Assembly: GCF_015223355.1 (NCBI RefSeq)
Contig: NZ_JADFFK010000003.1
Span: 124,001-188,000 of the forward strand
Source: Salipiger mangrovisoli
Lineage (GTDB): Bacteria; Pseudomonadota; Alphaproteobacteria; Rhodobacterales; Rhodobacteraceae
Length of the DNA: 64,000 bases
Direction of reading: 5' to 3'
Each line of letters begins with the position of its first letter. Within the stretch, counting starts at the first letter, position 1. Position numbers and translations under genes: made by a program. The notes beneath the pieces are model-generated. The model was not told the origin of the DNA, did not search any database, and saw nothing but the letters and a program-made list of their open reading frames with translations. This document shows positions 5,113-20,746 of this stretch, piece by piece.

Positions 5113-6178
5113 GAGTTTCGTGGCTGCGATGTTTATCGGAACCCTAGCCTACCCGACTCTCGCGGTTTCGCAAATGGTCAGTGTCCTGAACGGAGAGGGC
5201 GAGCACGGCTATGGTTTCATGTTCGCGCATAACGGGAATTGCTACGTGGCATTGCCGCGACACGTTGCCGGACCGGAGTATTTGCCAAGGATCAACCTGT
5301 CCACGGCGGCACCGGTCGTCTCGGGGACGGGCAGCGTACTTCGTCCGTTCTGGGAGGGCATCGACCTTGCATTGGCCGTCGCCTCCGAAGCGCTGCACCC
5401 GCAGTGCACGGCCAGCCTCGCAGACTTCAGCCCGTCGCGCTCGGCTCTGACGGCCGCCACCGCACAGCTCTTGCGATTGCAGCCAGATGGGTCTGAGGAC
5501 CGTGTCCAGATCGTCATCGAGAATCGAGGATACCTGTCCTTCGTCGGACGTGTCGCCCCCGGCGAGCCGAGGGAAATCGCACAGGGAACCTCGGGAGCCT
5601 TTGCCTTTTCGCGCGGCGAGCCGATCGGCATGGCTCTGACATCGGATGACCCGACGCGCGCGACCTTCATGCGGGTCGAGGAGATCGGCATCAATCTGGA
5701 GCGCTATCTTTCGCAAAGCGGTGGGGCACCGCTTCAGCCGCCGAAAATCGACGCCGGACCCACGGCAGAGAGCCCGGAGGGACGGCTGCCGCTGGTGCTT
5801 GTGTCCTCCAGCGTTCCGGCGGTGAACCCGACGCTCGCGCCCGAAAACATGCTGGGCGACGGGATGTTCGTTTTCGAGCCCGCGCGGCGCATGATCTTCG
5901 ATTTCCGGTTCGAGCCAGACGAGGCGAAGCCGCTGAAGCGGCTGCGCCTGACCGCCCCGGCGGGAGGCAGTTACGCGGTGCCGAAGAACGTGTTGATTCA
6001 AGCCTCCATCGACGTCGAGGGTGCCGGATTCAGCACCCTCTTTCGCACTCAGTTCAGCCCCGACGGTGTCCTCGACACAGGTGACGTCGCGCCGCGCTTC
6101 GTCCGTCGCCTCAGGGTGATCGTGCTGGATACCTGGGCAGACGGACAGGTGGCGATAGATCGCGTCTCGGCCTGGTAG
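5075..6178 (+). CDS. Secreted trypsin-fold peptidase-like protein with C-terminal beta-sandwich
   Basis: The chosen ATG at 5075 follows GGGGAGG with five bases between; further starts at 5084 and 5111 are in frame. The 367-residue product has an N-terminal signal peptide (about residues 1-32). Residues 35-215 look like a chymotrypsin-fold protease: His63 in VALPRHVAG, Asp97 in EGIDLALAVA and Ser173 in QGTSGAFAFSRGEPIGM stand where the catalytic triad belongs. GTSGA replaces the usual GDSGG, so activity is uncertain. Residues ~225-367 resemble a discoidin/F5-8C-like binding domain (ends LRVIVLDTWADGQVAIDRVSAW). Its 5' end overlaps the divergent secreted-protein gene. The fold call is inference from motif spacing; the targets are unknown. 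Confidence 0.65.
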   Translation: MANMRNAIVTRIMSFVAAMFIGTLAYPTLAVSQMVSVLNGEGEHGYGFMFAHNGNCYVALPRHVAGPEYLPRINLSTAAPVVSGTGSVLRPFWEGIDLALAVASEALHPQCTASLADFSPSRSALTAATAQLLRLQPDGSEDRVQIVIENRGYLSFVGRVAPGEPREIAQGTSGAFAFSRGEPIGMALTSDDPTRATFMRVEEIGINLERYLSQSGGAPLQPPKIDAGPTAESPEGRLPLVLVSSSVPAVNPTLAPENMLGDGMFVFEPARRMIFDFRFEPDEAKPLKRLRLTAPAGGSYAVPKNVLIQASIDVEGAGFSTLFRTQFSPDGVLDTGDVAPRFVRRLRVIVLDTWADGQVAIDRVSAW

Positions 6179-6180
6179 CG

Positions 6181-6711
6181 TCAGTCGATGATGCGGATCG
6201 TGAAGGCGACGGGTTCGGTGACGTTATTTAGCGATGCGACTCCCGTGACCGACCCCGTGTCCGAGATCGTGGCCCGCGCGTTCATGCCGTAAGGGGTCAG
6301 GAAAATCCCGTCGCTATTGACCGTGACAAAGCAGTCGTTCGGCCGGTAGCTGGCCTCTCCAAAGCAGCGGTTCTTTTCATGGTACTCTCCGACGGGTATG
6401 CGCCAATAGCCAATGCCATCCGCGTCGAGCGTGCCATTCCAGTCCCGCATTCTGGTGACATATTGGGCGCTTTCGATATTTGCCCCGTCGAACCTGATGC
6501 TGAAGATCGGCTTTGTCTTGAGAAACGTCTCGAACGCGATGCGCTTCACGGTCGAAATGGGGGACAGAAGGCCATATTCCAGCGCCATGCGCTTCAAGTT
6601 CTCGTCGCCCGATTCCAGCATGATCTCCATCGCGGCGAGGCTCCGAGCCGGGTCTGGGTCGCTCAGAAGTTCTTGGTAAGGATTGAGATCGCTCATCCTT
6701 TTGTCGATCAT
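6181..6711 (-). CDS. Hypothetical protein with HEAT-like N-terminal part
   Basis: This gene encodes up to 176 residues. Translation may begin at Met1 (6711, MIDKRMSDLN) or at the internal Met (6696, MSDLNPYQ), which has AAAAGG directly before it; neither start has an ideal ribosome binding site. The first ~70 residues are helical and resemble a pair of HEAT-like repeats (LLSDPDPARSLAAMEIML). The remainder is beta-rich (FSIRFDGANIES to AFTIRIID). There is no signal peptide, so the protein is probably cytoplasmic. The gene converges tail to tail with the peptidase-like gene, with two bases between stops. Function is unknown; it may be a partner of the surrounding uncharacterised genes. Confidence 0.6.
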   Translation of the reverse strand: MIDKRMSDLNPYQELLSDPDPARSLAAMEIMLESGDENLKRMALEYGLLSPISTVKRIAFETFLKTKPIFSIRFDGANIESAQYVTRMRDWNGTLDADGIGYWRIPVGEYHEKNRCFGEASYRPNDCFVTVNSDGIFLTPYGMNARATISDTGSVTGVASLNNVTEPVAFTIRIID

Positions 6712-7085
6712 TGCCGAGATCTGTTCCGGTGTCAGACTTTACGCTGATGCGTAGGTCGGCAAGGAGACTGCCAATGCCAGAATACAACGATAGATCAAAT
6801 TCCCTCTCCCGTAATGGCGATATGACGCGAATAAAAAAATGGGTCAAATGTCCGTCGGTCGCTTCCGTGGTGCCGAAAGCTATCGAAAGGCTACGTCAAT
6901 GAGGAACGTCAGAAAAGGGCTGCTTTCAAGGCGCGTGATAGGGAACTGGCCGGCCACCCGGCTGGCCCTGGCCGAGCGGAAGCTCGACCGGGGACAGCCT
7001 GGCGGTCAGGTTTTTCGGGTTTTTTCGCCTGGCAGTGCCTCAACCGTGTCGCGATGCGCCACCATCGTGACGGGGGCAGGGTGGG
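6712..7085. other. Intergenic region, no gene seen
   Basis: These 374 bases lie between two leftward genes. Short frames here lack ribosome binding sites and family resemblance. The stretch from 6770 to 6850 is AT-richer than its surroundings (it includes an ATAAAAAAAT run near 6830) and probably holds the promoter for the gene starting at 6711. No clear hairpin plus T-run was found. Confidence 0.4.
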
Positions 7086-8570
7086 TCAGCCGGATGTGTT
7101 CATCTGGGCAAAGTACAGTGTGGTATCTCTGTAGCTGCCCACTGCGTGCACTTCGGATATCTCCGGGAGGTCTGCCATGAAACGCCACAAAGAGCTGGAC
7201 TCGAAGGAAATCCCGGTGCGTTGCTCTGCCTCGCTATGGGCCGAGAACAGGATGCCCTTGCGCGCGACGCGGACCAGGTGGGTCGCCAAGGCGCGAGCCG
7301 CGTCGAGCGACGGCTGGTGGATCAGCACATCTATGCAGCTGCAATAGTCGTAGCTGGACCCGTCGATGCGATCGATTGTGCCGGCGATATAGGTCCAATC
7401 CGGGCGCTTGCCGCGGGCAATCTCCAGCGCCTTCTCAGACAGGTCGAGGCCCGTGTAGTTCTTGATGTCCATGAGGTGGTAGACCTCAAGATCGCCACAG
7501 CCGACATCCAGCAGGCTGTGATCTCCCATCATGGCCAGATAGGGACGCATGAGCGATTGCTTCCACATCAGAACCTCACCGCGCGATCCGAGCCCGGATC
7601 CAAGCTCGGGGAACATCTGGTAGCGGAAATCCCAGAAAATCTCGTTCAGGAATCCGGCGCGGCGTTGTTCGGTAAGAATGCTGCGGGCCGTGCCGATCTG
7701 CTGATCGATCCACGGCAGATTGCCGACCGCGACGGGCAGGCCGTGATTGTCGCTATGCGCGTGATAGTGCAGCGCGCTCACCGGCTGGGCTTCCAGGCGC
7801 GACAGTCGCGGCAAGCCCAGGTGCGTGGGAAGGTTTGCGCCATCGGGCAATGGCGAGATCTCGGCACCGGCTTCCAGCAGGGCGAGCCCCATGCCAACCT
7901 GATCGGCATTGTGAAGGTTGTTGGGCAACAGCTCGACCTGCTCAAGCACGAAGCGCGCATGCTTGGCCCAAAGCGGGGCGAGGGTCTGGGCCACGCTGGC
8001 GGGCATGACGTAGAGACCCCCGTTGAAGTTCACGTCTGAAGTCTGCGATCCGGGTTCCATTGTCACCGGGACGGGGCGCAGGTCATCGCCGAAACCGGCC
8101 CTGTGGAAGAGCTCACGAAGGGCGGGCAACGGGGGATGGGGCAGATCGACCGGTTTGGCGCGGAACTTGCCGTCTTCGACGAGCTTGGCGGGGTCATCCA
8201 GGAAGACGATATCGGCGTCGGACAGGATGACGAAATCTGCGTCCAGAAACTCTGGGCTTTCCAGTTGATTGATCTTGTTTGAGAACCTTGCCGCCCCGTC
8301 TCCGAAGGCGGGCACTTCTATCAAATGGGCCCCCAAGGCGCGAAATGCGTCCTGAAGATTTTCATTCACAGCGCCAGGCAGGTGGTGCACGAAGATCTTG
8401 CAGGTCGTCTCCAGAGCGCGCAGCGACAACAGCCAGTTCCAAGCTTGCATCCGGAATCTGGGCTCGTTGTCGATCAGACAGGAAATGTGGATCCGAGGCG
8501 CTTGCGCGCCCTCTTGCGACGGTGTCGATGCCGCGACGGGCTGCGACGTGGAGGAGCCATCTGATGCCAT
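7086..8570 (-). CDS. Glycosyltransferase-like / SAM methyltransferase fusion protein
   Basis: Starting at the ATG at 8570 (MASDGSS), this gene encodes 494 residues; an upstream in-frame TTG at 8636 has no ribosome binding site. The N-terminal ~300 residues look like a GT-A type glycosyltransferase: DADFVILSDADIVFLDDP holds a DxD-like motif (Asp118-Ala-Asp120), followed by DVNFNGGLYVMP and NADQVGMGLALLEAG, typical of nucleotide-sugar transferases. The C-terminal ~150 residues are a class I methyltransferase with motif I LLDVGCGD (residues 353-360) and NYTGLDLSEKALEIA as motif II. A plausible role is sugar transfer plus methylation on a surface glycan. Substrates cannot be told from sequence. 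The gene stands alone between two large intergenic regions. Confidence 0.75.
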   Translation of the reverse strand: MASDGSSTSQPVAASTPSQEGAQAPRIHISCLIDNEPRFRMQAWNWLLSLRALETTCKIFVHHLPGAVNENLQDAFRALGAHLIEVPAFGDGAARFSNKINQLESPEFLDADFVILSDADIVFLDDPAKLVEDGKFRAKPVDLPHPPLPALRELFHRAGFGDDLRPVPVTMEPGSQTSDVNFNGGLYVMPASVAQTLAPLWAKHARFVLEQVELLPNNLHNADQVGMGLALLEAGAEISPLPDGANLPTHLGLPRLSRLEAQPVSALHYHAHSDNHGLPVAVGNLPWIDQQIGTARSILTEQRRAGFLNEIFWDFRYQMFPELGSGLGSRGEVLMWKQSLMRPYLAMMGDHSLLDVGCGDLEVYHLMDIKNYTGLDLSEKALEIARGKRPDWTYIAGTIDRIDGSSYDYCSCIDVLIHQPSLDAARALATHLVRVARKGILFSAHSEAEQRTGISFESSSLWRFMADLPEISEVHAVGSYRDTTLYFAQMNTSG

Positions 8571-8960
8571 ATGACGTATCTGCCTTTGGTGTTTTTGCTT
8601 TTCGCGGACGCTAGTCCAAGGGGTCTGCCGGGGCAAAGTGTTTTAGCCCGTTCTCTGTTGTCGGTTTGATGGCTGTTGCTCAGGGGCCTGAAGAGAGCCG
8701 CGTGCCTCGCAGACAGCGCCGTAGGTAGGGTGGGCTTTCGCGGCTTTGCTCCCCTGTCCGTCAAGAAACTTCAGGACGCCGACAGGAGGTCAGCTCAAAC
8801 ATGTAGGCTCTCCGGTGCTATGGAAACAATCGGCGCCGAAGATATGCACGTCGTTTTCGTGGCTTTTCTCGACTCGCGGTATGTGCTGAATATTACATAT
8901 TAAGACTCGAATTTTTGCTGTGCCTCGGATCCACCTTTATGGGCGCGGAGCGCGAATTCC
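8571..8960. other. Divergent intergenic region with AT-rich palindrome
   Basis: These 390 bases separate the divergent fusion enzyme and RTX protein genes, so promoters for both should be here. No credible gene is seen. At 8889-8901 lies a perfect palindrome (AATAT, spacer TAC, ATATT) inside the most AT-rich stretch, 60 bases before the RTX start. It could be a promoter element or an operator. Confidence 0.4.
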
Positions 8961-10916
8961 ATGCAGGATATTTCGGAAACAGAACTGATCTTCGGCATCT
9001 CGGAACCATATCGCCCGGTACCAGGCGTGGCGATAACGCCAGGAAAAACCGAGGCCGAGACGCTCGTTCGGCTGGAGGGGTTCCAGGTCAGGACGAACCC
9101 ACATGCATCGGGCGCGGCATATCTTGAAGCAACCGCAAGCGCGTCGCGGGTCAGTGGCATCTTCACGGGGCCGATGGGCCTATACGACCTGAAGCTGGGC
9201 TACATGGACGAGTCCGACGGCGTCTCGCGCATGGAAATTTTCGTCAACGGCACGCTGGTTGCCGCGTTCAACTGGTCAAAGTGGCCGAGCAGCGACACGG
9301 TGACCCGCACTGCGAAGACCGAGTATCTACTGGCGGGCCTGGCGCTTGCTCCGGGGGACGAGATCACCCTGCGGGGCGCGCGGGACGGCGGCGAGCCTTT
9401 GCGAACCGATTACCTTGTGCTGACGGACAGGCTGACCACGGTCACCGGCAGCAACGGTGCCGACCTGCTGAGAGGCAGCGCTGCCGACGAAAGGGTGCTG
9501 GGCCTGGGCGGCGCGGATCGGATCTTTGCCCTCGGTGGCGAGGACCTGATCTTCGCGGGGGCGGGCGACGATACGGTTCGGAGCGGAGAGGGGGATGACA
9601 CGATTGTCGGCGGTGCCGGACGTGACGTGATCTACACCGGCGCTGGGCGAGACATGGTAGTACTCACCGACCTGGCCGCTTTTGACAAGCTCTATGATTT
9701 CGAGGTCGGGGTAGACAGCCTGCGGGTGCAGATCAAGGGAATCACGAGCGATGACCTTTATCTGCACAAATGGCGTCTCATGGCGCGGACCGATGTCGGC
9801 GACATGCGGCTCGCGATCATTCCCGATGCCTGTGCCAAGCAGGCCACGGTTGCCGATCTGCTGCAACCCGAGGTGCCTGCGGATGCCTCGACGCTGCATT
9901 CTCTCGTCTTCGGGGAGGAGGTGAAGAGCGAGATTTCCTTCGCTGAGGATACCGACTGGTTTCGCTTCGAGGCCGAGGCGGGAAAGTTCTACGCCTTTAC
10001 CCTGGCCGGAGACCCCGAGGCCGCGGCGGCGCTCGGCATGCCGGCGATCGCGCTGCGAGCTGGCGATGGGACGGTGCTTGGCAGCAGCAACGACAGCGGC
10101 GTGCCGGTGGCGCAGTTGCCCTACCTTGCGAGCGCCTCAGGAACTTTCTTCGTCGAGGCCTCAGACCTCTACGGCGGCGGGATGGGCAGCTATACCCTAT
10201 CAGTCGTGCTCGCCGAAGATCTCGACAGCATTCCGGGGGACGCAAGCACCCCGGCCGACCTCGGTGCGGGCGGCGAGCTTCAGAGCGACCTGGGGTATCC
10301 CGGCGACGTCGACTGGATCCGGGCCGAGCTGAAGGCCGGAAGCCTCTACCGCGCCGACCTCTACAGCGAGGCGGGGACCAATCCCTACCTTTCGCTGCTC
10401 GATGCTTCGGGCGAGGTGCTGGCCCGCGACTACGGGGGCCAATGGGCGACGCTCTATCATCGTGCCGCCACCGACATTGAGGTCTTTCTGCAAGTGACTG
10501 CCGATTTCGGTCATGAGGCGGGGACCGGGGTCGGCCCCTATCGCCTGACCCTGGCGCTGGCAGATGATATCGATCCCATCGCCGAGGACGCCACGACATC
10601 GACCACGCTCCTTCCGGGTGAGCCACTGCGCAGCGATATCGGGTATGCGGGCGATGAGGATTGGCTGCGGGTCGAGCTGAAGGGCGGACAGAGCTACCGT
10701 TTCGACTTGGTAGGTGTCGCTGATCGCGACGATCCGCTCGCCTATCCCGAGCTTGGTCTCTACGGCACCGATGGCATGCAGATCGCGGCTGCGCAGGGAG
10801 AGGCGGACGGCGCAGCGCAGCTGTGGTACACGCCCGAGACCGATGAACTGGTCTTCGCCGCGGTGCGCAGTGAATATTCCATTTTCACCGGCGACTACCT
10901 GCTCAGCGTCGCATGA
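8961..10916 (+). CDS. RTX calcium-binding secreted protein with three PPC-like domains
   Basis: The 651-residue protein has no Sec signal, as expected for type I secretion. Residues ~20-155 look like a carbohydrate-binding-module-type beta-sandwich (LVRLEGFQVRTNPHASG to TDYLVLTD). Residues ~163-236 carry hemolysin-type calcium repeats of the GGxGxDxxx kind (GLGGADRIFALGGEDLIF, GAGDDTVRSGEGDDTIVGG). Residues ~305-651 hold three related PPC-like units, each with a DxDW(F/I/L)R core: DTDWFRF, DVDWIRA, DEDWLRV. Unusually, the RTX block is central rather than C-terminal. No type I secretion genes are in the window. A role in surface adhesion, glycan binding or matrix formation is likely; no protease or toxin domain is visible. 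Confidence 0.85.
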   Translation: MQDISETELIFGISEPYRPVPGVAITPGKTEAETLVRLEGFQVRTNPHASGAAYLEATASASRVSGIFTGPMGLYDLKLGYMDESDGVSRMEIFVNGTLVAAFNWSKWPSSDTVTRTAKTEYLLAGLALAPGDEITLRGARDGGEPLRTDYLVLTDRLTTVTGSNGADLLRGSAADERVLGLGGADRIFALGGEDLIFAGAGDDTVRSGEGDDTIVGGAGRDVIYTGAGRDMVVLTDLAAFDKLYDFEVGVDSLRVQIKGITSDDLYLHKWRLMARTDVGDMRLAIIPDACAKQATVADLLQPEVPADASTLHSLVFGEEVKSEISFAEDTDWFRFEAEAGKFYAFTLAGDPEAAAALGMPAIALRAGDGTVLGSSNDSGVPVAQLPYLASASGTFFVEASDLYGGGMGSYTLSVVLAEDLDSIPGDASTPADLGAGGELQSDLGYPGDVDWIRAELKAGSLYRADLYSEAGTNPYLSLLDASGEVLARDYGGQWATLYHRAATDIEVFLQVTADFGHEAGTGVGPYRLTLALADDIDPIAEDATTSTTLLPGEPLRSDIGYAGDEDWLRVELKGGQSYRFDLVGVADRDDPLAYPELGLYGTDGMQIAAAQGEADGAAQLWYTPETDELVFAAVRSEYSIFTGDYLLSVA

Positions 10917-11050
10917 AGGCTCTGCCTGCAAGCGCTCCAAGGCTTCACGGATGCCCCTTCGCGCGCGGCAACCGCCTCCGTGTCGCAGCGGCTTTGTATG
11001 AAATGCATGTTCTGTCCTGAACCTGATGCCGGCGCGGGGGCGGGTCGGAT

Positions 11051-11476
11051 CTATCCCCCAGCTCTTGTGTTACGGGTGGCGGCAATCATGATCTCGGCAA
11101 TGGCGGCGTAGGCCTTTGACCAGGCGGCCTCGCTCCTGGCATCGAAGCGGGTGCCGCAGATTTCGCGCAGGGTGTCCAGCAACGCTGCGCCGACGATCCC
11201 GAAATGCTCGGACCGCGCGCCAAAGTCCACATGACGGCGACCCAGTTCTTCCACCACCGGCACGATCAGCTCGATCCGGTCGACGGAGTCGACCACCGTC
11301 GCCAGTGTATCCATCAGCTTGCGCCCCTGAACCTGCGGGCCTTCGCGAAAGAGGGGTCGCAGGGATGGCGCCCTGCGAAACAATATCTGGTAGAACAGCG
11401 CTCCAGCCTGCTCGCGGTTCGCGGCCATCAGGATCCAACTGCTGCGAATGGCCGCGATTTCCTCATTGGTGAACAT
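11051..11476 (-). CDS. Single-domain globin
   Basis: The 141-residue protein matches the bacterial haemoglobin / flavohaemoglobin globin fold. The proximal haem ligand is His in ELGRRHVDFG, followed by SEHFGIVGAALL as in Vitreoscilla-type globins. The B10 tyrosine lies in LFYQILFRRAP, and a glutamine stands at the distal E7 position (QVQGRKLM). There is no reductase domain, so it binds O2 or NO but would need a separate reductase for catalysis. It begins 18 bases after the stop of the coiled-coil gene 11495-13177 on the same strand, so the two are very likely co-transcribed and share the divergent promoter region with the che operon. A sensory role in taxis is inference; NO detoxification or oxygen binding are alternatives. 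Confidence 0.88.
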   Translation of the reverse strand: MFTNEEIAAIRSSWILMAANREQAGALFYQILFRRAPSLRPLFREGPQVQGRKLMDTLATVVDSVDRIELIVPVVEELGRRHVDFGARSEHFGIVGAALLDTLREICGTRFDARSEAAWSKAYAAIAEIMIAATRNTRAGG

Positions 11477-11494
11477 GACCGTGTTTCCCTTCTC

Positions 11495-13177
11495 TCAGAA
11501 CCACTCAAAATCCTCCTCGTCTTCGCTGGCAGAGCCGCTCGGGGCGGCAAGGTGACCCTCTGGGCAAATGCTGTCGTGGATCTCGCGCTCCTCGGGCACG
11601 GAATAGAGCGCCCGGAGCGCGGCAGCCGCGGCGCGAGCATCGGCGCTTGGCTCGGTGGCGGGGCTTTGCGGAGGATTGTCGTGCAGCCGTGCCGCCAGCG
11701 CCGCGATCTGCCGTGCGACCGCGCGCTGCTCTTTCATCTCCTCGGCGCAGCGGATGAAATCGTCCACGGCTCGCGGCCCGCGATGCAGCAGCCCGTCGAG
11801 TTCGCGCCGCAGATCGCTCCACAGGAAGAGAACGCCACCAAGTCCGGCGAGGCTGTCGCCGATGCGCTGCAACTCCTCGCCGACGCGGTCCTGCCGTGCC
11901 CCAACAGAGCCTGCGGTGATCTCCTGGATGGTCCTCAGCTCGGTCACGATGCTGGCCTGCGCGCTCGAGCAGGTGTCGGTCAACTCGCCGAACTGGCGTG
12001 CGACGAACATCATCGCAGGGCCGTTCCGGCGGGCCCGCTGGCTGCGAAGGAAAACGTTCAGACTGCCGCGCCGCATGTCGCCATCGATCTGCGCGAGGCC
12101 GCTGATGACCCCCTGCATCTGTGCGATGCTTTTGCGCAGGCCGCGCATCTGCCGCTCGATCGAGCGCTGTTGCGCCTGGCTTGAATAGAGCGCAGCCAGC
12201 CCCGCGCCGCAGCGGTCCCGCAGGTCTTCCAGCAGCGGGGCGACCTCTGACTTGCCGGACAGGGCGTCGCCCCACTCGGCGAATTGGCTACCGAGCTTGG
12301 ATGCTGCCCGAAGCACCGCCGCGAGCCGCGTCAGGTCGGCATCGAGCGCGCGGCCCGCGCCGGCGAGCTGCGCGGCGGCAATCCGCAACACGAGCGCATG
12401 GGCATCGGGCGAGGTCGCGGCATCGGGCAGGCAGGGTCCAAGTGCGGCCCCCACATGTTCGAGCCGCTGGCGGAAGCTGTCGCCGACCTGTAGCGCCGAA
12501 ATGCCGTCCGACATGTTCCCTGACACCCCGGTGACCGCCTCCACCACGCGCGAAGAGGCCCGCGCGGCGTCGCGCAACCGCGGCCCGAGTCCCGCCGCGA
12601 GCCCTTGCAGGGCGCTGCCGAGCCCAGCCAGGTGTGATAGATTTGCATGGGTGAAGGTCGCCTGGCGGGTCCGGATCGCCATGGTCTGGTCGAGAAGAGC
12701 GTCGCGCTGGGCGATCAGCCCGATATAGGCCTCGCGGCTCCGAAGGGACAGCGATTTGATTTCGGAGGAGAAACTCAGTTCGCCGTCAATGTCGGTTTCG
12801 GATTCGACCACGCTCGCCGTGCTGGAGAACAAGTCGATCATGCGCACCGTCTCGTGCAGCTTGGCCAGCGGCCGGGCGGTTCGCTCCAGCGTTGCGATCA
12901 GCCGATCGATGGTCTGGGCTTCCTGCGCATGGGCGGTCTCTGCCTCGCTGAACCGGCTGGCCAGCAGCGTGATCGTCTGCGCCACGTCGGTGTCGGCGAA
13001 GTCCAGAAGACCCTGGCAGTATCGGCCAAGGGTGTCCGACAGGGGGCCGATGTTCTCGCGCCCCGACAACAGAGCGTCGGCAGCCCGCGTGAAGGTGCCC
13101 TCGACGGCCTGGGTCATTGCCTCGAGGTCTTGCCGCACGGCCGCGGCGCGCAATGTCTGCGACGTGCGATCGCCCAT
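11495..13177 (-). CDS. Long coiled-coil chemotaxis-associated protein
   Basis: This gene encodes 560 residues, almost entirely helical and rich in Ala, Leu, Arg, Glu and Gln, with no membrane segment. Segments such as RPLAKLHETVRMIDLFSSTA and ALQVGDSFRQRLEHVGAAL resemble the helical bundles of soluble chemoreceptor-like proteins, but the canonical receptor hairpin motif is absent. The acidic, aromatic C-terminus (SEDEEDFEWF) follows a flexible linker and looks like a docking tail, comparable in style to the CheR-tethering tail of receptors or the CheY-binding tail of CheZ, without matching either exactly. It is transcribed divergently from STAS-cheY-cheA and sits just upstream of the globin gene. 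No cheZ, cheC or cheD is nearby, so it could be a phosphatase, scaffold or receptor partner. Confidence 0.7.
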   Translation of the reverse strand: MGDRTSQTLRAAAVRQDLEAMTQAVEGTFTRAADALLSGRENIGPLSDTLGRYCQGLLDFADTDVAQTITLLASRFSEAETAHAQEAQTIDRLIATLERTARPLAKLHETVRMIDLFSSTASVVESETDIDGELSFSSEIKSLSLRSREAYIGLIAQRDALLDQTMAIRTRQATFTHANLSHLAGLGSALQGLAAGLGPRLRDAARASSRVVEAVTGVSGNMSDGISALQVGDSFRQRLEHVGAALGPCLPDAATSPDAHALVLRIAAAQLAGAGRALDADLTRLAAVLRAASKLGSQFAEWGDALSGKSEVAPLLEDLRDRCGAGLAALYSSQAQQRSIERQMRGLRKSIAQMQGVISGLAQIDGDMRRGSLNVFLRSQRARRNGPAMMFVARQFGELTDTCSSAQASIVTELRTIQEITAGSVGARQDRVGEELQRIGDSLAGLGGVLFLWSDLRRELDGLLHRGPRAVDDFIRCAEEMKEQRAVARQIAALAARLHDNPPQSPATEPSADARAAAAALRALYSVPEEREIHDSICPEGHLAAPSGSASEDEEDFEWF

Positions 13178-13274
13178 ACGCTGTTCTTGGTTCCGTGTTT
13201 CTTTCGGTTTCCGGCTCCGGGTCCTGCGTCGCGCAGGCGATGCAACGGACAGGGTCCCATTCCTCCCGCCGTTC

Positions 13275-13290
13275 TAGCTTCAGAAAGCTA
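13275..13290. promoter_or_regulatory. Palindrome in the divergent che promoter region
   Basis: Perfect inverted repeat TAGCTT, four-base spacer CAGA, AAGCTA. It lies in the 281-base gap between the leftward coiled-coil/globin unit (start 13177) and the rightward che operon (first start 13459). A site here could control both units together. No matching regulator gene is adjacent, so the call rests on symmetry and position only. Confidence 0.4.
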
Positions 13291-13458
13291 ATGTTTCCTT
13301 CGTGCAAGTGTGGCCCGGCGGCGGCACGCGCGGCGAAGCGGCTTAACGGTGCCGAAAGACTCTTGCTTCAAGAAGTCCCAAGGCAGGTCTTGCGGATCCC
13401 GGCATTCGGGACGGGCGGGCTGCCCCCGACCGGAGCGAGGCGCGAGAGGAGCGTGAGG

Positions 13459-13731
13459 ATGTCGGCATATGTCGTTTCGATGATTTCCGAGACGCGCGCG
13501 TCGTTGGCCGCAGCGCTGGACAGCGGGGTGAGCGTGGTGCGACTTCATCCGCAGGACGAGATCGACACAGCTGGCGCGCAACTTCTGGTCGCCGCGGTGC
13601 TCGAGGCACGGGCGGCGGGTCGCCGCCTGTCAATCGAACTCTGCAGGGAGGAAGCCGCGGGACGGCTCTGGTGCGGGCTCGCTTTCGACCTGCTGCCGGA
13701 AACCGTGTGGCTGGAAGAGGACGCAACATGA
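13459..13731 (+). CDS. STAS-domain protein of the che operon
   Basis: The ATG at 13459 is preceded by GAGAGGAG. The 90-residue product has the STAS fold signature EIDTAGAQLLVAAVLEARAAG. At the position where SpoIIAA-type anti-anti-sigma factors carry the phosphorylated serine (DxSG) this protein has alanine (DTAG), so a kinase-controlled switch at that site is unlikely. STAS proteins of this type commonly lead alphaproteobacterial chemotaxis operons, but their role is not well defined. Its stop overlaps the cheY start (ATGA at 13728-13731), which indicates translational coupling. Confidence 0.82.
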   Translation: MSAYVVSMISETRASLAAALDSGVSVVRLHPQDEIDTAGAQLLVAAVLEARAAGRRLSIELCREEAAGRLWCGLAFDLLPETVWLEEDAT

Positions 13732-14096
13732 AACGAACGGTTCTTGTCGTCGATGATTCCGCCTCGGTCCGGCGGCTGATCTCGTCCACTTTGCGCGCGG
13801 CCGGGTATGACACCATCGAGGCGACAGATGGCCAGGACGCATTGTCGATCGCTCGGACCGCGCGCCCTGCCGCGGTGATCACCGATCAGAATATGCCCAA
13901 TCTTGACGGTCTCGGGTTCATCCGCGCGTTCCGGGCGCTGCCCGGCACGGCGGGTGTGCCGGTGATCTTCCTGTCGACCGAGAATGCGGAAACCCTCAAG
14001 CAGAAGGCCCGTGCCGCCGGTGCGCTCGGCTGGATGACCAAACCCTTTGACGACCGCAAGCTTCTGAATGTCGTCTCGAAGGTACTGGGCGCATGA
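13728..14096 (+). CDS. cheY: Chemotaxis response regulator CheY
   Basis: A single receiver domain of 122 residues. The acidic pocket is Asp9-Asp10, the phosphorylation site Asp53 is in VITDQNMPNLDG, the switch residues are Ser in IFLSTEN, and the conserved lysine is in MTKPFDD. With no output domain it would act by binding a motor switch or another protein after phosphorylation by CheA. ATGA overlaps couple it to the STAS gene before it and to cheA after it. No flagellar genes are in the window, so whether it controls swimming or another process cannot be decided here. Confidence 0.95.
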   Translation: MKRTVLVVDDSASVRRLISSTLRAAGYDTIEATDGQDALSIARTARPAAVITDQNMPNLDGLGFIRAFRALPGTAGVPVIFLSTENAETLKQKARAAGALGWMTKPFDDRKLLNVVSKVLGA

Positions 14097-16093
14097 CCGA
14101 AGACGCAGAGCAGCTCTTCCCCATCGAGGCGCGCGCGCTTGCCGAGAGCCTGGAAGCCGGGCTTCTTGACCTGAAGTCGCATCCCGAGGATCGGGCATTG
14201 ATCGACGGGGTGTTTCGCGACCTGCACACGCTGAAAGGCTCGGGCGCCATGTTCGGCCACACCCGGCTGGCGCAATTCCTGCATGACTTCGAAACGGCCT
14301 TCGAGGCCGTGCGCGACGGGCGCCTGCGCGTGTCGCCGGCGCTGGTGGAGCTGGGGCTGCGTGCCTGCGACCATGCGATGGCGCTGCTCGACGGCGGCTC
14401 CGCCGAGCCGGGCGAGGTTCTGTTGTCGGCCCTTGCCGCCCTGACCCTGGAGCCTGGCGCGGCACAGGCTGCCGCACAACCGGACGATCTGGCCGCCGGA
14501 ACGGGTGTGGGCGATAGCCTGGCCTTGGGGCGGGAGGCGGCAGCCGTGCCTGATCAGGATGGGCCGCCCCCATGGTCGCTGAGCGTCTACTTGGCCGGAG
14601 ACACGCTCACACTCGGTGGACGCCCGCTCGGTGTGCTCGATGAGTTGCGGGCGCTCGGCGCTCAGCGCCTGCACCCGCTCCTCGATCGGTTGCCGCCGCT
14701 CTCGGAGCTCACCCCTGACCGGCTCTACGTCGGCTGGCGGATGGAGCTTCCGGGCGAGCTTTCGGAAGAGGTGATCCGAGAGGCTTTCCTCTTTCACGAC
14801 GAGGGGCTCGATCTGGAACTGGAACGGCGTGCAGCCGGTCCGGCCGAGGCAGCTGCGGCACGTGGCGCCACGGCGGCCGCCGATCCCGAACAGCCGGATG
14901 CAGAACGGCGGCCCAAAGGGTCGGCCGGCGCGATGATGCGGGTTCCGGCCGAACGGCTGGATGAGATGATGGACAGGGTGGGCGAACTTGTGATCGCCGA
15001 GGCGCGTCTTGCCGAATTGGCGGCCCGCTCGGGCGATACGCTGCTGATCACCGTCGCCGAGGAGATACAGCGCCTCGCGACCAGCATGCGCGAGACCACG
15101 ATGTCGATCCGCATGACACCGATCGGATCGATCTCGGGAAGGTTCCGGCGCCTGGTTCATGACCTCGACGCGACGCTTGGAAAGCCGATCGACCTGGTGA
15201 TCGAAGGGCAGGACACGGAGCTCGACAAGACGGTGATCGAAATGCTTGCCGATCCCCTGATGCATCTGATCCGGAATTCCGCCGATCATGGACTCGAGAC
15301 GCCGGAGGAAAGGCGGTCGATGGGCAAGCCCGACGTCGGCACGATCCGGATGGGAGCCCGTTACTCCGGTGCCGAGGTGGTCATCACGCTTGCCGATGAC
15401 GGTCGCGGGCTCGACCTTGGCAAGCTGCGCGCACATGCGGAAAAGCGTGGCCTGATCGGCCCCGAAGACGATCTCGACGACGCCGAGATCAGGGCGTTGA
15501 TCCTGCAACCCGGTTTCTCGACCGCGCAAAGCGTCACCGAACTCTCTGGGCGCGGTGTCGGCATGGACGTCGTGCGCCGCACCATCGAGCAGCTGCGCGG
15601 CACGCTCGAGGTCGAGAGCGAACCTGGACATGGCACGCAGATCAGCATGCGTCTGCCGCTCACTTTGGCGATCATTGACGGTCTCTTGGTGGAAGTTGCC
15701 GGCGAGCGCTACACGATCCCGCTGGCCGCGGTTGAACATATCATCGAGCTTCCCGAAGACCGCGCACAGGAGACCGGCCACACCCGATTGCTGACCATCC
15801 GAGACAAGCTTGTGCCGTTTCTCAGGCTCCGGCAGTTGCTCGACAGCCCCGGCGCGCCGGGACCCCATCAGAAGGTCGTGGTCGTCACCGCGGGCGAGCT
15901 GCGGGTCGGCCTTACGGTCGATCGCATAATCGGCTCGAGCCAGACGGTCATCAAGCAGCTTTCGCCCCTGCATGCCGCGCTGAAGTCCTTTTCCGGCGCC
16001 ACGGTCCTCGGGGACGGTACGGTGGCGTTGATCCTCGACGTGCCGCAGCTTGTTGCCTTCGGCCAGGCACTCGACGCGGTGGAGGCTGCATGA
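14093..16093 (+). CDS. cheA: Chemotaxis histidine kinase CheA
   Basis: The 666-residue protein has the usual order. The P1 Hpt domain carries the phospho-accepting His45 (LHTLKGSGAMFG). A variable middle part contains a small domain at ~residues 155-245 and an Ala-rich linker. The P3 dimerisation helices (MMRVPAERLDEMMDRVGELV) come next. The P4 ATPase has N-box HLIRNSADHGLE, G1 ADDGRGLD and G2 GRGVGMDVVR. The P5 CheW-like domain ends the protein. It phosphorylates CheY (13728) and CheB (19628) in response to receptor arrays containing the MCP encoded two genes downstream. It overlaps cheY at its start and cheW at its end by four bases each, typical of a tightly coupled operon. Confidence 0.96.
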   Translation: MTEDAEQLFPIEARALAESLEAGLLDLKSHPEDRALIDGVFRDLHTLKGSGAMFGHTRLAQFLHDFETAFEAVRDGRLRVSPALVELGLRACDHAMALLDGGSAEPGEVLLSALAALTLEPGAAQAAAQPDDLAAGTGVGDSLALGREAAAVPDQDGPPPWSLSVYLAGDTLTLGGRPLGVLDELRALGAQRLHPLLDRLPPLSELTPDRLYVGWRMELPGELSEEVIREAFLFHDEGLDLELERRAAGPAEAAAARGATAAADPEQPDAERRPKGSAGAMMRVPAERLDEMMDRVGELVIAEARLAELAARSGDTLLITVAEEIQRLATSMRETTMSIRMTPIGSISGRFRRLVHDLDATLGKPIDLVIEGQDTELDKTVIEMLADPLMHLIRNSADHGLETPEERRSMGKPDVGTIRMGARYSGAEVVITLADDGRGLDLGKLRAHAEKRGLIGPEDDLDDAEIRALILQPGFSTAQSVTELSGRGVGMDVVRRTIEQLRGTLEVESEPGHGTQISMRLPLTLAIIDGLLVEVAGERYTIPLAAVEHIIELPEDRAQETGHTRLLTIRDKLVPFLRLRQLLDSPGAPGPHQKVVVVTAGELRVGLTVDRIIGSSQTVIKQLSPLHAALKSFSGATVLGDGTVALILDVPQLVAFGQALDAVEAA

Positions 16094-16608
16094 TGCCGCG
16101 CGCGTTTCGATCGGCACAGCCCTCGCGAGAATTTCGGCCCGCGCAGGATGTCGTGACGCTGCGCCTTGGTGGCGAGCTTCTGGCGATCGAGAGCGGGCTC
16201 GTGCGCGAGGTGCTGGAGCCCGGTGCCATCACCCGCGTTCCGAATGCCCCGGCATTTGCCGCCGGCCTTCTGAACGTGCGCGGCACGGTCGTGCCGCTCA
16301 CCGATCTGCGCATTCCCCTGCGGATGCCGAGATGTCCCCGCGATGCCGACACGCGGATCCTCGTGCTCGACCTGAAACTTGCCGGCGCGGCCTCGGTGGT
16401 CGGCATCCTTGCCGAGAAGGTTCATGAGGTCACGCAGATCTCCTCCGCCGCGATCGAGGACGTGCCGGACGTGGGGGCGCGCTGGCCGGCACAGTTCGTT
16501 CGCGCCATCGGCCGCAAGGACACGCAGTATTTCATCATCCCCGACCTCGACGCCATTTTCGCAGCCTTTCTCGCGGTGCCGCTCGGCGCCGCGCTCCAAA
16601 TCGCCTGA
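16090..16608 (+). CDS. cheW: Chemotaxis coupling protein CheW (first copy)
   Basis: A 172-residue CheW-like domain with the core LLAIESGLVREVLEPGAITRVPNAP and GLLNVRGTVVPLTDLR. It couples the receptor to CheA. An N-terminal extension of about 20 residues precedes the domain. It is followed after nine bases by the receptor gene; a second CheW copy lies after the receptor. Two divergent copies could fill different positions in the array (CheA-bound versus receptor-bound), though that is inference. Confidence 0.93.
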   Translation: MMPRAFRSAQPSREFRPAQDVVTLRLGGELLAIESGLVREVLEPGAITRVPNAPAFAAGLLNVRGTVVPLTDLRIPLRMPRCPRDADTRILVLDLKLAGAASVVGILAEKVHEVTQISSAAIEDVPDVGARWPAQFVRAIGRKDTQYFIIPDLDAIFAAFLAVPLGAALQIA

Positions 16609-16617
16609 GGAAGCCCC

Positions 16618-18279
16618 ATGCGTCTCACGCTCAAGCTCAAGCTCTCCGCAACCCTGATCCTGCTCGTCGTCGCCTCGTTCAGCGCCAGTTTGCTCGCCCT
16701 GGACAAGCTCGCAGGGATGCAAAGCAGGATGGACGACGTTGTCCACACGCAGGCCGAGCGGGTGCGCCTTGCCGAGGAGTTGGGGCGCGACCAGCTTCGC
16801 GTGCAGCGCGATGTGCGCGAGTACATTCTGGCCGAAACCCCCGCGGTGAAGCGCGAGGTGTCGGCCGCGATGGACGCCGCCCGCAGCCGCCATGACGAAA
16901 CCCTGCGGGTGATCCGAGCCATCGCCTCCGATGCGGGGCGCGAGAGGCTTGTCACCTATGAAGGGCTCGTTGACCGCATCCAGGCGATCAATGACGATGC
17001 GATGGCCCTGGCGGATGGCGGTCAGACCTTGCAGGCCTTCCGAAAGGTTAGCGGAGATGGAAAGCTGGCCTGGCGTGCCATGGAGGACGAGATCGATGGC
17101 ATCTTGGACCTCAATCGTGAGGGGCTTTCACAGGCGGCGATCGCAGCGTCCGAAAACCATGCATCCGCGCGGGTCCTGACGATTTCCCTGATGATCGGCA
17201 TCGCACTGGGCAGCACGCTTGCCGGCGTCTGGATCGTGGTATCGATTTCCCGCGGCCTGTCGCGGGCGATTGATCTGGCGCGCAAGGTTGCGCGGGGGGA
17301 CCTCACCGAAACCGTGGTGATCGCGTCGAACGACGAGATTTCCGATCTTCTGGGCGCGATGAACGAAATGACGGGAAACCTGCGACGGGTGGTCGGCGAG
17401 GTGACGGGAGGCGCTGGACAGGTGGCCTCCGGCTCCGCGGAAATGGCATCGACCGCCGAGCAATTGAGCCAAGGCGCGACAGAGCAGGCCTCCTCCACCG
17501 AAGAGGCTTCGAGCTCCGTCGAGCAGATGACGGCAAACATCCGGCAGACCGCCGACAATGCCACCCAAACCGAGGAAATGGCCCGCAAATCTGCCGAGGA
17601 TGCCCGCGATTCCGGACGCGCGGTGGCCGAGGCAGTGGAGGCGATGAAGACGATCGCCGAACGGATTCTGGTCGTCCAGGAGATCGCGCGCCAGACCGAT
17701 CTTCTGGCTCTCAATGCGGCCGTGGAGGCGGCGCGCGCCGGGGAGCACGGTCGCGGTTTTGCCGTGGTTGCCTCGGAGGTGCGCAAGCTGGCCGAGCGCA
17801 GCCAGACCGCCGCGGGCGAAATCTCCTCGCTTTCGGGCAACACGGTGCGCGCGGCCGAAGCGGCGGGAAAGATGCTCGAAGGGCTGGTTCCTGACATCGA
17901 GCGCACGTCGGAACTCGTTAGCCAGATCAGTTCGGCCAGCCGCGAGTTGGCGTCGGGCGCGACGCAGGTGAACCTCGCGATACAGCAGCTCGACAAGGTC
18001 ACGCAGGAAAACACTTCAGCCTCGGAAGAGATGTCGGCGACCGCCGAACAGCTCTCGGCGCAGGCGGAAAGCCTGCGGTCCGCCATCGCCTATTTCCGGA
18101 CCGATGCGCAAAGCCAGCCCGGCACCGGTGTGGCCGCGGCGCCGCGGCGGAAGGGCAAGCCCAGGTCCAGAACAACCAAGACGCTCGACGCTGGCGGGTT
18201 CGACTTCGACCTGAGCAACGCCGAGGATGATCTCGACGCAGCCTTCGCGCGGCCGCCTCGCGGCAGCGCGGTCGCCTGA
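16618..18279 (+). CDS. Methyl-accepting chemotaxis protein
   Basis: This is a 553-residue classical receptor. TM1 spans about residues 10-28. A ~155-residue periplasmic four-helix-bundle type sensor follows, then TM2 at about 186-210, a HAMP domain and a cytoplasmic signalling helix pair. The hairpin tip is canonical ([19 protein letters not shown] then [19 protein letters not shown]). The tail after ~520 is basic and then acidic ([16 protein letters not shown]) and lacks a classical NWETF-type CheR-binding pentapeptide. The periplasmic ligand is unknown. It is the only receptor in the cluster, set between two cheW genes. Confidence 0.95.
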
Positions 18280-18291
18280 GGGACAAGGCCG

Positions 18292-18792
18292 ATGCGTGCC
18301 GAGACCGTGGTGACCTTCGCCGTTGCCGACTCGCTGTTCGCGGTCGAGGTCCGGAGCGTGCAGGAAATCCTGTCGGCGCGCGTGCCGACCCGGCTTCCGA
18401 ACGCCCCGTCCCATCTGCTTGGCCTGATCGACGTGCGCGGCACATCGGTCGCGCTGGTCGATCTTCGGAGCCTGCTCGGCGAGGCAGCGCGGGGGGATGA
18501 CGAGAACACGCGCATTCTCATGCTGACGATCGACCGTGGCAGCCGCACCAACCGAGTCGCGCTGCGTGTCGATCGGGTGATCGAGGTCGCGGCCCTGGAC
18601 CACGATGGCGCCATCGCCGCGCTCGAAGAGGCCGAGATGGTGGATTGGGATCAGCGCATCCTCAAGGGCGTCGGCCGTCGCAACGACGAGATCGTCGTGC
18701 TGCTCGACATCGGTGCCGTGTTCGATCCGCAGCTCATGGGTGTCCTGCGGACCCGTGGACGGCCCGCGGACATGCTTCCATGTCCGTCCTGA
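18292..18792 (+). CDS. cheW: Chemotaxis coupling protein CheW (second copy)
   Basis: A 166-residue CheW domain: VTFAVADSLFAVEVRSVQEIL, then RLPNAPSHLLGLIDVRGTSVALVDLRSLLG. It begins 12 bases after the receptor gene and overlaps the cheR start by 13 bases. It differs clearly from the first copy (for example in the loop after the RGT motif), so it is not a recent duplication. It probably couples receptor and CheA in the same array. Confidence 0.93.
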   Translation: MRAETVVTFAVADSLFAVEVRSVQEILSARVPTRLPNAPSHLLGLIDVRGTSVALVDLRSLLGEAARGDDENTRILMLTIDRGSRTNRVALRVDRVIEVAALDHDGAIAALEEAEMVDWDQRILKGVGRRNDEIVVLLDIGAVFDPQLMGVLRTRGRPADMLPCPS

Positions 18793-19643
18793 CCCAAGGC
18801 AGCCACCACCGCCGGTTCCGAGAGCTCATCTTCCGCGAGACGGGCATAAGAATGCCCGACAGCAAGAACCATCTGGTCGCATCCAGGCTTCGAAAGCGGC
18901 TTATCCACCACAGGTTTCAAACGCTTGATGAGTATCTCGGCCTGCTGTTCGACTCCGGTGGGCTTCAGGAGGAATGGCCGGAGATCATCGACCTGATCAC
19001 CACCAACAAGACCGATTTCTTCCGTGAGAAAGCCCATTTCGACCTGCTGGTCCGCAGGGTGATCCCCGAGGCCTTTGCCCGCGCAGGTCCCGGCAGATCG
19101 ATCCGCTTCAGGCTTTGGAGTGCGGCCTCCTCCACCGGCGCCGAAGCCTATACCGCGGCGATGTTGCTGGCCGAGGCGGCGCGCGCCGATGCCCGTCTGG
19201 ACTGGGCGATCCTTGGAACCGATATTTCAACCGGCGTTCTGGCCGAGGCGACACGCGCCATCTACCCACGACGCGACGTGGCACCGGTGCCGCCGGAACT
19301 GCTTGCGCGCTACCTGATGACCGGCCGGGGCGGGGAGGGGTCGGGCCAGGTCCGGATCGTACCCGAACTGCGCCGCCGTGTCCGCTTTGCGGAGCTGAAC
19401 TTGATCGAACCGCCTTATCCGGTCAGTCACGGGCTCGACGCGATTTTCCTGCGCAATGTGCTTATCTACTTCGACGGGGACCGTCAGCAGCAGGTGATTT
19501 CGGATGTGATCGCGCATTTGCGGGCCGGTGGCTGGCTGTTCGTGGGGCACGCGGAATCGATGATCGTTCAGGACCGGCGGCTCGAACAGATTGCGCCTGC
19601 CGCCTTTCGTCGGAAGGAGGCTTCGCCATGCCGATCAGGGTGA
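18780..19643 (+). CDS. cheR: Chemoreceptor methyltransferase CheR
   Basis: The chosen ATG at 18780 gives 287 residues beginning MSVLTQGSHHRRFRELIFRETG, matching the CheR N-terminal helical domain. LITTNKTDFFREKAHF is the conserved substrate-side motif, SAASSTGAEAYTAAMLL stands at the SAM-binding loop, and AIFLRNVLIYFD is the conserved C-terminal motif. CheR adds methyl groups to receptor glutamates for adaptation. The gene overlaps cheW by 13 bases and cheB by 16 bases. Confidence 0.94.
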   Translation: MSVLTQGSHHRRFRELIFRETGIRMPDSKNHLVASRLRKRLIHHRFQTLDEYLGLLFDSGGLQEEWPEIIDLITTNKTDFFREKAHFDLLVRRVIPEAFARAGPGRSIRFRLWSAASSTGAEAYTAAMLLAEAARADARLDWAILGTDISTGVLAEATRAIYPRRDVAPVPPELLARYLMTGRGGEGSGQVRIVPELRRRVRFAELNLIEPPYPVSHGLDAIFLRNVLIYFDGDRQQQVISDVIAHLRAGGWLFVGHAESMIVQDRRLEQIAPAAFRRKEASPCRSG

Positions 19644-20746
19644 TGATCGTCGATGACAGTTCTTCGGCACGCACCGCCTTGAGCCGGCTGTTGAGCGCCG
19701 ATCCGGGTATCCTTGTCTGTGGGCTTGCCGGCGACCCTTTCGAGGCGGCCGCGCAGATGCGCGGCGACCTGCCGGATGTCTTGCTGCTTGACCTCGCGCT
19801 CCCGAGGATGGACGGGCTGACGTTTCTTCGCCGGATCATGGCACAGCATCCCCTTCCGGTGGTGATCTGTTCCAGCTTCACCGCCGCCGGTTCGGCCAAT
19901 GCATTGCGGGCACTGGAGTCCGGTGCGGCCGAGGTGATCGCCAAGCCCACGCTGGGAAATGCCGAGGAATGGGCGGAAGCGCAGGTGTTGCTGTGCGACG
20001 CGGTCCATGCCGCGGCCTCGACAAACCCGCGGCGCAAGACCAGGCCTCCGCGCCAGGGGACCGAGCCCGGACCCAAGCTGTCAGCCGACGTCATCCTGCC
20101 GCATCTGCCGCCAAACCCGAAAGCCGGGCCTCCGCAAGGGCAGGTCATCGCCATCGGTGCCTCCACCGGCGGCACCGAGGCGCTCGTGCAAGTGCTCTCA
20201 GGGCTGCCTGCCGGCTTGCCGCCCATTCTCGTGGTGCAGCACATGCCAGAGCATTTCACCCGCACCTTTGCGCAGCGCCTTGATGGTCTCACCCCGATCG
20301 CGGTGGCCGAGGCACAGAGCGGTGACCGTCCGAGACCTGGGCAGGCTTTCATCGCGCCGGGCAACAACCATCTGCTTCTGCGTCGCTCCGGCGCAGGCTA
20401 TGTGCTTGACGTTGTGCGTGGACCGCAGGTCGCGCGGCATCGTCCTTCGGTGGACGTGCTGTTTCGCTCCGTCGCCCAGGCATCGGGCAACAAGGCGCTG
20501 GGGATCGTGCTCACCGGCATGGGGGACGACGGGGCGCGCGGCCTGATGGAAATGCGCGCGGCCGGTGCCCGCACGTTCGTACAGGACGAGGCGAGCAGCG
20601 TGGTCTTCGGGATGCCGAAAGAGGCGTTGGCCTGCGGCGGGGCAGATTCAGCGGTCCCGATCAAGCGCGTCGCGACCGAAATTCGCAGATGGGTGGACGA
20701 GATCGCCTGGCATCCGGCCGGAAAGGGGCGGGTCCGCCCGGCCTGA
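19628..20746 (+). CDS. cheB: Chemotaxis methylesterase/deamidase CheB
   Basis: The ATG at 19628 follows GGAGG with seven bases between and gives 372 residues. The N-terminal receiver domain has phospho-Asp55 (LLLDLALPRMDG). A Pro-rich linker (~residues 135-175) leads to the esterase domain with the catalytic triad motifs GASTGGTEAL (Ser), QHMPEHF (His) and TGMGDDGARG (Asp). It removes methyl groups from receptors and is activated by CheA. It closes the che operon; no cheD follows. Confidence 0.95.
   Translation: MPIRVMIVDDSSSARTALSRLLSADPGILVCGLAGDPFEAAAQMRGDLPDVLLLDLALPRMDGLTFLRRIMAQHPLPVVICSSFTAAGSANALRALESGAAEVIAKPTLGNAEEWAEAQVLLCDAVHAAASTNPRRKTRPPRQGTEPGPKLSADVILPHLPPNPKAGPPQGQVIAIGASTGGTEALVQVLSGLPAGLPPILVVQHMPEHFTRTFAQRLDGLTPIAVAEAQSGDRPRPGQAFIAPGNNHLLLRRSGAGYVLDVVRGPQVARHRPSVDVLFRSVAQASGNKALGIVLTGMGDDGARGLMEMRAAGARTFVQDEASSVVFGMPKEALACGGADSAVPIKRVATEIRRWVDEIAWHPAGKGRVRPA

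Follow-up and report, generated by a model that had tools for sequence, protein, structure and literature searches.

Gene content of the locus

The DNA analysed here, referred to as the window, is a 64,000-nucleotide (nt) stretch of Salipiger mangrovisoli (assembly GCF_015223355.1, contig NZ_JADFFK010000003.1, positions 124,001 to 188,000). This study concerns two adjacent genes on its minus strand, encoding a 560-residue coiled-coil protein (CC) and a single-domain globin. The two genes are divergent from an eight-gene che operon with the order STAS-like gene, cheY, cheA, cheW, chemoreceptor gene (MCP), cheW, cheR, and cheB (Table 1). The initial annotation had placed a single-domain globin 18 bases after a 560-residue protein and divergent from the che operon, and the coordinates confirm this. 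The window DNA is GC-rich, and open reading frames (ORFs) also occur on the strand opposite CC and the globin; the minus-strand reading was settled because homologues of both genes occur in other genomes. The spacing of the two genes suggests that they are co-transcribed. A simple consensus scan detected no sigma-70-type promoter in positions 10900–13750.

Table 1. Features of the CC–globin locus and the adjacent che operon in the window.
Feature	Position	Strand	Evidence
Globin, single-domain, 141 residues	11051–11476	minus	Pfam Globin 5.8e-13, 49.8 bits (cut-off 22 bits); PDB HGbRL 2.9e-29
Globin haem-pocket stretch, Tyr29 (B10), Gln50 (E7), Lys53 (E10) to proximal His82 (F8)	11231–11392	minus	Alignment to HGbRL
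Intergenic gap from the CC stop to the globin start, 18 nt	11477–11494	minus	
CC, 560-residue helical protein, unnamed che-operon family	11495–13177	minus	
CC acidic-aromatic C-terminal tail SASEDEEDFEWF, predicted disordered (pLDDT <50)	11498–11533	minus	Such a tail in 29/31 members
CC motif YSVPEEREIHD (family consensus YTMxxERxIHD)	11573–11605	minus	Alignment A5
CC degenerate chemoreceptor hairpin tip, residues 364–400 (N374 = Tsr N381)	11978–12088	minus	hhalign and residue tables
CC motif LQVGDSFRQR, residues 229–238, invariant D233 and Q237	12464–12493	minus	31/31 family members
STAS-like protein (weak)	13459–13731	plus	Pfam STAS_2 0.00041, under cut-off
CheY	13728–14096	plus	Pfam 6e-25
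CheA	14093–16093	plus	Hpt, H-kinase_dim, HATPase_c, and CheW domains
CheW (first)	16090–16608	plus	Pfam 7.8e-28
Chemoreceptor (MCP)	16618–18279	plus	4HB_MCP_1, HAMP, MCPsignal (Pfam MCPsignal 3.8e-34)
CheW (second)	18292–18792	plus	Pfam 5.4e-26
CheR	18780–19643	plus	Pfam 5.9e-54
CheB	19628–20746	plus	Pfam 1.8e-62

The host genome (6.35 Mb) has two CheA genes and encodes flagellins. Its second, divergent chemosensory cluster (G000:C2:102436, L127) has a CheA approximately 32% identical to the window CheA. CheZ was not detected in the host genome (no PF04344 match at 0.001). On the other side of the globin, an adjoining convergent gene (8961–10916) encodes a protein that combines a PPC domain with calcium-binding repeats of the RTX type.

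Distribution and gene context of the CC family

With a single sequence as query, CC was detected in 4 of 61 genomes (host genome included), all belonging to one genus. The profile search at 1e-5 found CC in at least 21 of 394 genomes of the bacterial family (host genome included), and a wider profile added at least three full-length homologues from the class outside this family. These counts are lower bounds because both profile searches scored only three candidates per genome. Weak or partial matches (G001, G079, G084, G240, G259, and contig C23 of G082) were left aside, and beyond the three full-length matches most of the rows listed for the wider profile span only the receptor-like region (approximately profile positions 245–530). 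The plasmid search with the window CC as query gave no match; the L049 CC retrieved one plasmid record and the CC of the distant member L130 retrieved 18, of which four were opened. In total, 31 distinct CC loci, including the window, were assembled from the profile-search genomes, named contigs, and plasmids.

CC lies directly 3′ of cheB on the same strand in 17 loci, and in seven of these the two genes overlap by 4 nt. It is divergent from the cheY end of the che operon in 11 loci, including the window. In the remaining three loci, CC precedes an MCP gene and cheY close to the end of a contig (L053), faces cheB across a ParA gene (L155), or sits at a contig edge (L056). Linkage to che genes was therefore found in 30 of 31 loci, 28 after cheB or divergent from cheY and two (L053 and L155) in or beside che genes. 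The gap figures come from mechanical ORFs, whose starts are over-long in L046, L055, and L128, and the layout of L052 was placed from gene-context data, as BLAST did not list its CC. CC is almost certainly part of the che system. The protein has no name, yet it is a standard part of one kind of alphaproteobacterial chemosensory operon, whether or not a globin is present.

The three annotated plasmid loci name CC a hypothetical protein, a chemotaxis protein, and a type VII secretion target. The last name, given to the Shinella homologue (L156, 6365–8089), is probably a misannotation. The CC of Salipiger G009 (L013, ~9600–9981) appears frameshifted near profile position 470, and this locus also has no globin. 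In the open-licence literature searched, we found neither the CC family described nor any pairing of a che-operon protein with a globin encoded on its own.

Receptor ancestry of CC

The window CC has no Pfam match below E 0.1 and no convincing Pfam or PHROG family. Pfam gave no sensor domain, and a single-sequence PDB search, with E values up to 1 allowed, yielded no related solved structure. CC has no membrane-spanning stretch, its Kyte–Doolittle maximum over 19 residues being 1.05 compared with 2.2 for the window MCP. The profile of 18 CC sequences placed the cytoplasmic domains of chemoreceptors first in the PDB (2ch7, 8.7e-15; best domain 4.6e-12), and unrelated coiled coils appeared only from 3.8e-4 on, well behind the chemoreceptors. 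The earlier description of CC as receptor-like is thus upheld by the family profile. When CC was aligned by hhalign with an alignment of 11 receptors, the value was 95.8% (E 6.7e-9) and the hairpin tip was aligned gap-free; with the window MCP alone, it was 75.5%.

AlphaFold2 predicted long antiparallel helices in CC, with a turn at residues 382–385, where the receptor tip would be. The predicted local distance difference test (pLDDT) values were 84.6 and 84.3 and the predicted template modelling scores 0.63 and 0.62, the first of each pair belonging to the window CC. Both Foldseek searches ranked a chemoreceptor model first, weakly (5.7e-4 and 1.2e-3), and unrelated helical proteins second (5.1e-3 and 2.4e-3). 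The template modelling (TM) scores to receptors were low (best 0.33 of the query); the soluble receptor 3g67 had a probability of 1.00 and a TM score of 0.53 of the target. The coiled-coil bias is real, as CC members also match unrelated Pfam families (Baculo_PEP_C in 6/18 and DUF1664 in 4/18). Pfam MCPsignal did not match the window CC, matched 4 of 18 CC members at E up to 0.1, and was just passed by the distant member L130 (35.4 bits vs. a cut-off of 34.6). The profile comparisons indicate that CC is a remote member of the receptor superfamily and that its hairpin is homologous to the signalling hairpin.

We take Tsr N381, E385, R388, E391, and E402 as positions at which receptors make contact with CheA and CheW. 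Among 25 CC sequences, the equivalent of N381 is invariant (25/25), E385 is never Glu (0/25), and R388 is Arg in 11. The equivalent of E391 is acidic in ten sequences and that of E402 is Glu in four. Most of the contact residues are therefore lost in CC, which argues against a receptor-like feeding of CheA and CheW.

Conserved motifs of CC

The pattern [LM]QxxDxxxQR was present in 31/31 CCs, compared with 0/167 other Che proteins of the same loci and 3/2000 shuffled CCs. In the window CC, the predicted helix that holds this DxxxQ motif is 111 residues long, and the motif is close to its end. The count of 31 is partly selected, since the motif was read from alignment A3, which holds 18 of the 31 members, and five more CCs (L058, L061, L062, L064, and L065) were retrieved by DNA patterns, including one taken from the motif itself. 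All eight CCs found by other routes carry it (L050, L128, L129, and L130 by profile; L154–L157 by tblastn). In the second motif, Y525, E530, and R531 are invariant in the 25 CCs of alignment A5. The invariant residues of CC cluster in the DxxxQ and YTMxxER motifs, and the hairpin contributes N374 only.

An acidic tail with hydrophobic last residues was found in 29/31 CCs and in 11/167 other Che proteins. The CC of Mesobacterium pallidum (L044, 10400–10501) has no acidic tail, yet a globin is present at this locus. The C-terminal EFEWF was also considered as a CheR-binding pentapeptide, in the pattern that we assume for it. This reading fits most tails of the close loci, not the LDDIFF-type tails of the wider family, and was rejected.

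In E. coli CheZ, D143 and Q147 are spaced as in this DxxxQ motif, and the sequence ends in VDDLLDSLGF; the roles of these two residues and of this end in CheZ are assumed here as commonly understood. Rhizobial CheT is a further protein with a DXXXQ motif. The available text of its report gives no significant homology to known chemotaxis proteins and describes dephosphorylation of one CheY and binding to CheR (PMC12654446).

The CC-linked globin

The closest solved structures to the window globin are the HGbRL globin domain (3wfw, 2.9e-29) and then 3s1i (3.3e-26), which we take to be HGbI. Gln50 and His82 presumably occupy positions E7 and F8. Y29, F43, Q50, and H82 are kept in all six che-linked globins and in 36/36 other globins, and K53 in 6/6 and 34/36, respectively. 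The names B10 (Tyr) and E10 (Lys) follow the work on HGbRL, where the E10 Lys closes on the haem according to the text available (PMC4476040). The haem site of the CC-linked globins is thus intact in its residues, and haem binding is predicted.

The six CC-linked globins form one clade in a tree of 42 globins (support 97/92; branch in 96% of 200 bootstrap trees), and the other five are 45–53% identical to the window globin. The Protoglobin model PF11563 gave only 0.079 for the window globin, under the cut-off. Its sole NCBIfam match was a flavohaemoprotein model, far below the cut-off (82.7 vs. 432 bits). The window globin looks flavohaemoglobin-like and not of the sensor-globin (Protoglobin) type of HemAT.

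Other gene contexts of such globins were observed. The host genome encodes a second such globin, whose gene neighbours specify a histidine kinase and a response regulator (L014). In this locus (5942–9182, host genome C77) and on a Rhizobium plasmid (L015, 5179–8432), the genes directly ahead of the globin gene encode a response regulator and a hybrid kinase of the PAS type, an arrangement which suggests that the globin may serve two-component systems, too, as a detachable sensor subunit. Four genomes of the bacterial family (L133, L137, L143, and L144) have the globin near a 916–920-residue kinase, a 204–208-residue response regulator, and an RTX-type calcium-binding gene. On plasmids of Sphingomonas parapaucimobilis (L016, 6001–7181) and Phaeobacter inhibens (L017, 6001–7138), the globin is directly followed by an MCPsignal protein of 253 or 227 residues. 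These are two of the three plasmid globin contexts opened, of 86 plasmid records. They represent a possible true split HemAT and are better candidates for one than the window locus.

Pairing of the globin with CC

The globin adjoins CC in 6 of 31 loci, all six within nine closely related divergent loci. The six are the window, Salipiger mucosus (DSM 16094), Mesobacterium pallidum, Marinibacterium profundimaris, a Pseudooceanicola metagenome-assembled genome, and G281. The close relatives with CC and without the globin are Salipiger bermudensis (AmN7-7), Wenxinia saemankumensis, and Salipiger G009. We describe the globin loci as lying within nine close relatives because two more distant loci, L050 of the same bacterial family and L156 of Shinella, share the divergent layout and have no globin. 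In all six pairs, the globin follows CC as a separate ORF in the same order and on the same strand, with gaps of 18, 40, 28, 59, 28, and 21 nt. Globin remnants were sought behind CC in L012, L013, L061, and also L050; only chance-level tblastn matches were obtained (best E 0.17), and this possibility was dropped.

The Che-protein tree of 16 loci (without L050 and L156) placed the nine close loci in one group, with the globin-less G009 outermost under midpoint rooting; some inner branches of this group were weak (0.46 and 0.72). The simplest history is therefore one gain of the globin and later losses in two lines. The globin is best read as a lineage-specific gas-sensing add-on in one Roseobacter-group lineage.

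Proposed function and alternative explanations

The lost receptor contacts, together with the kept DxxxQ motif and tail, lead us to read CC as out of kinase control and acting on CheY. Our tentative reading, to which we give rather less than an even chance, is that CC is a receptor-derived protein acting on CheY and that the globin was added as a haem sensor acting through CC. The acidic C-terminal tail would most likely bind phosphorylated CheY (CheY~P), and D233 and Q237 of the DxxxQ motif would most likely speed its dephosphorylation. In the simplest mechanism, the globin would bind oxygen (O2) or nitric oxide (NO), dock on CC, and adjust its action. The gas level would thereby tune chemotactic signalling at the shut-off step. 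Taken separately, an action of CC on CheY seems about evenly balanced, and a globin working through CC falls just short of that. CC is perhaps a CheY~P phosphatase, a candidate activity suggested by its motifs. The most specific form, a haem-gated signal terminator in which an O2- or NO-binding globin switches a receptor-derived CheY~P phosphatase and the gas input enters at dephosphorylation and not at the kinase, we regard as unlikely.

Several results weigh against this reading. No globin was found near CC in 25 of 31 loci (BLAST, E 1e-4, available flanking DNA, which is short in the 4.5-kb contig of L045 and at the contig edges of L053 and L056). These include three of the nine close loci, L050, and L156, so CC does not need the globin. 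The co-occurrence expected in the initial annotation accordingly fails across the CC family and holds within the close loci (6/9). The two-protein sensor proposed there keeps in its favour the recurrence of the pair in unchanged order, on the same strand and closely spaced, the single globin clade, and the kept haem-pocket residues, and has the globin-free loci against it. Such globins are also common in the bacterial family, where 96 of 394 genomes hold one (1e-10), and a che operon was seen in 0 of 16 further globin contexts. The tail criterion was set after the tails had been seen, and two CCs have no such tail, namely L013, whose frame appears broken, and L044, behind which a globin lies nonetheless. 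DxxxQ is a short pattern, and invariance does not by itself make a motif catalytic. The hhalign comparison of the CC profile with E. coli CheZ gave 0.2% and no homology, a weak test because only one CheZ sequence was used, and the 50 fold matches that each Foldseek search listed included no CheZ entry.

The same data can be read in other ways. The globin might be a passenger, a protective or NO-detoxifying haem protein that shares the operon and has no signalling role. Globins of the F lineage are NO dioxygenases or O2 binders, and the flavohaemoprotein match and the many CC loci without a nearby globin would agree with this. However, 141 residues leave no room for a reductase domain, the globin stands strictly behind CC in 6/6 loci, and its clade, apart from 36 other globins, has been retained with the operon despite drift to 45–53% identity; we find this explanation rather doubtful. 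A bipartite receptor, in which the globin senses gas and CC as its receptor partner controls CheA via CheW as in Campylobacter CetB/CetA, is in our view unlikely. It would draw on the remote receptor homology with the invariant N381 equivalent, the distant member that passes the MCPsignal cut-off, the gene pair conserved in six loci, and the globin genes beside small MCPsignal proteins on the Sphingomonas and Phaeobacter plasmids. Most kinase-contact residues are nevertheless lost in CC, Pfam gives it no sensor domain, and 25 of 31 loci show no nearby globin. The contact residues speak against the proposal that the pair feeds CheA and CheW, and the DxxxQ motif and tail point to CheY.

CC could also be a structural organiser that arranges the chemosensory array or its position in the cell, with the DxxxQ motif and tail serving for docking and not for catalysis. 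Its long helical hairpins, receptor ancestry, and che linkage in 30/31 loci would suit such a role, as would the ParA-family gene between CC and cheB in Agrobacterium leguminum. Among the annotated plasmid CC loci, that gene was seen in one of three (a fourth, L157, is without annotation), and the concentration of invariant residues in the two motifs, with only N374 in the hairpin, does not favour this role, which we consider quite improbable.

To our knowledge, many alphaproteobacteria other than rhizobia lack CheZ. Rhizobia themselves are described as lacking it in the available text of PMC8429497. The way in which CheZ-less alphaproteobacteria end chemotaxis signalling is a matter of current interest. 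With its receptor ancestry, invariant DxxxQ motif, and CheZ-like tail, the CC family is a concrete and testable candidate for signal termination. The variant with the globin provides a natural way to test whether signal termination can be a point of action for gas sensing. The globin behind CC suggests, without proof, that O2 or NO can tune the steering of some marine bacteria.

Comparison with known systems

In HemAT and other globin-coupled chemoreceptors, as at this locus, a haem globin is linked to a receptor-like signalling module. The proximal His82 is present in all six CC-linked globins, and haem binding is predicted. HemAT is one chain with a sensor-type globin, whereas the globin and CC are separate chains in 6/6 loci, the window globin is of the Globin type (PF00042), and the CC tip is without most kinase contacts. 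Membership in HemAT was rejected because the globin type and the separate chains do not fit.

HGbRL and HGbI of Methylacidiphilum are the closest solved globins and, as far as their available description goes, share the B10 Tyr and E10 Lys with the window globin. HGbRL is fused to a Roadblock/LC7 domain, whereas the window globin is a single-domain protein encoded next to a che gene. Campylobacter CheO is likewise an oxygen-related accessory and interacts with CheA and CheZ; it differs in being confined to Campylobacterota, and the portion of the report available mentions no globin (PMC9665402).

CheZ resembles CC in two features, a long helix that carries DxxxQ and a C-terminal tail of acidic-hydrophobic character. 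It differs in length (214 vs. 560 residues for CC), CC has a receptor-like hairpin, and homology was not detected. CC as a CheZ homologue was rejected on the hhalign value and the lack of a PF04344 match in the host genome. CheT is much smaller than CC. The two are alike, compared by description, as alphaproteobacterial che-operon proteins with DXXXQ and without clear homology to known chemotaxis proteins, and differ in that the predicted fold of CheT is reported as CheZ-like in the available text (PMC12654446).

CetA and CetB of Campylobacter, and CetA2 and CetB2 of Magnetospirillum, divide sensor and receptor between two proteins, which in Campylobacter are co-transcribed according to the text available (PMC13401364). 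The separation of the sensor from a receptor-like protein is shared with the window locus. The parts differ, with a PAS/FAD sensor and a HAMP membrane receptor there, and a haem globin and a membrane-free, degenerate receptor-like CC here. As judged from sequence, the CC–globin pair belongs to neither HemAT nor CheZ and may work like a bipartite sensor of the CetA/CetB kind or like a terminator of the CheZ/CheT type.

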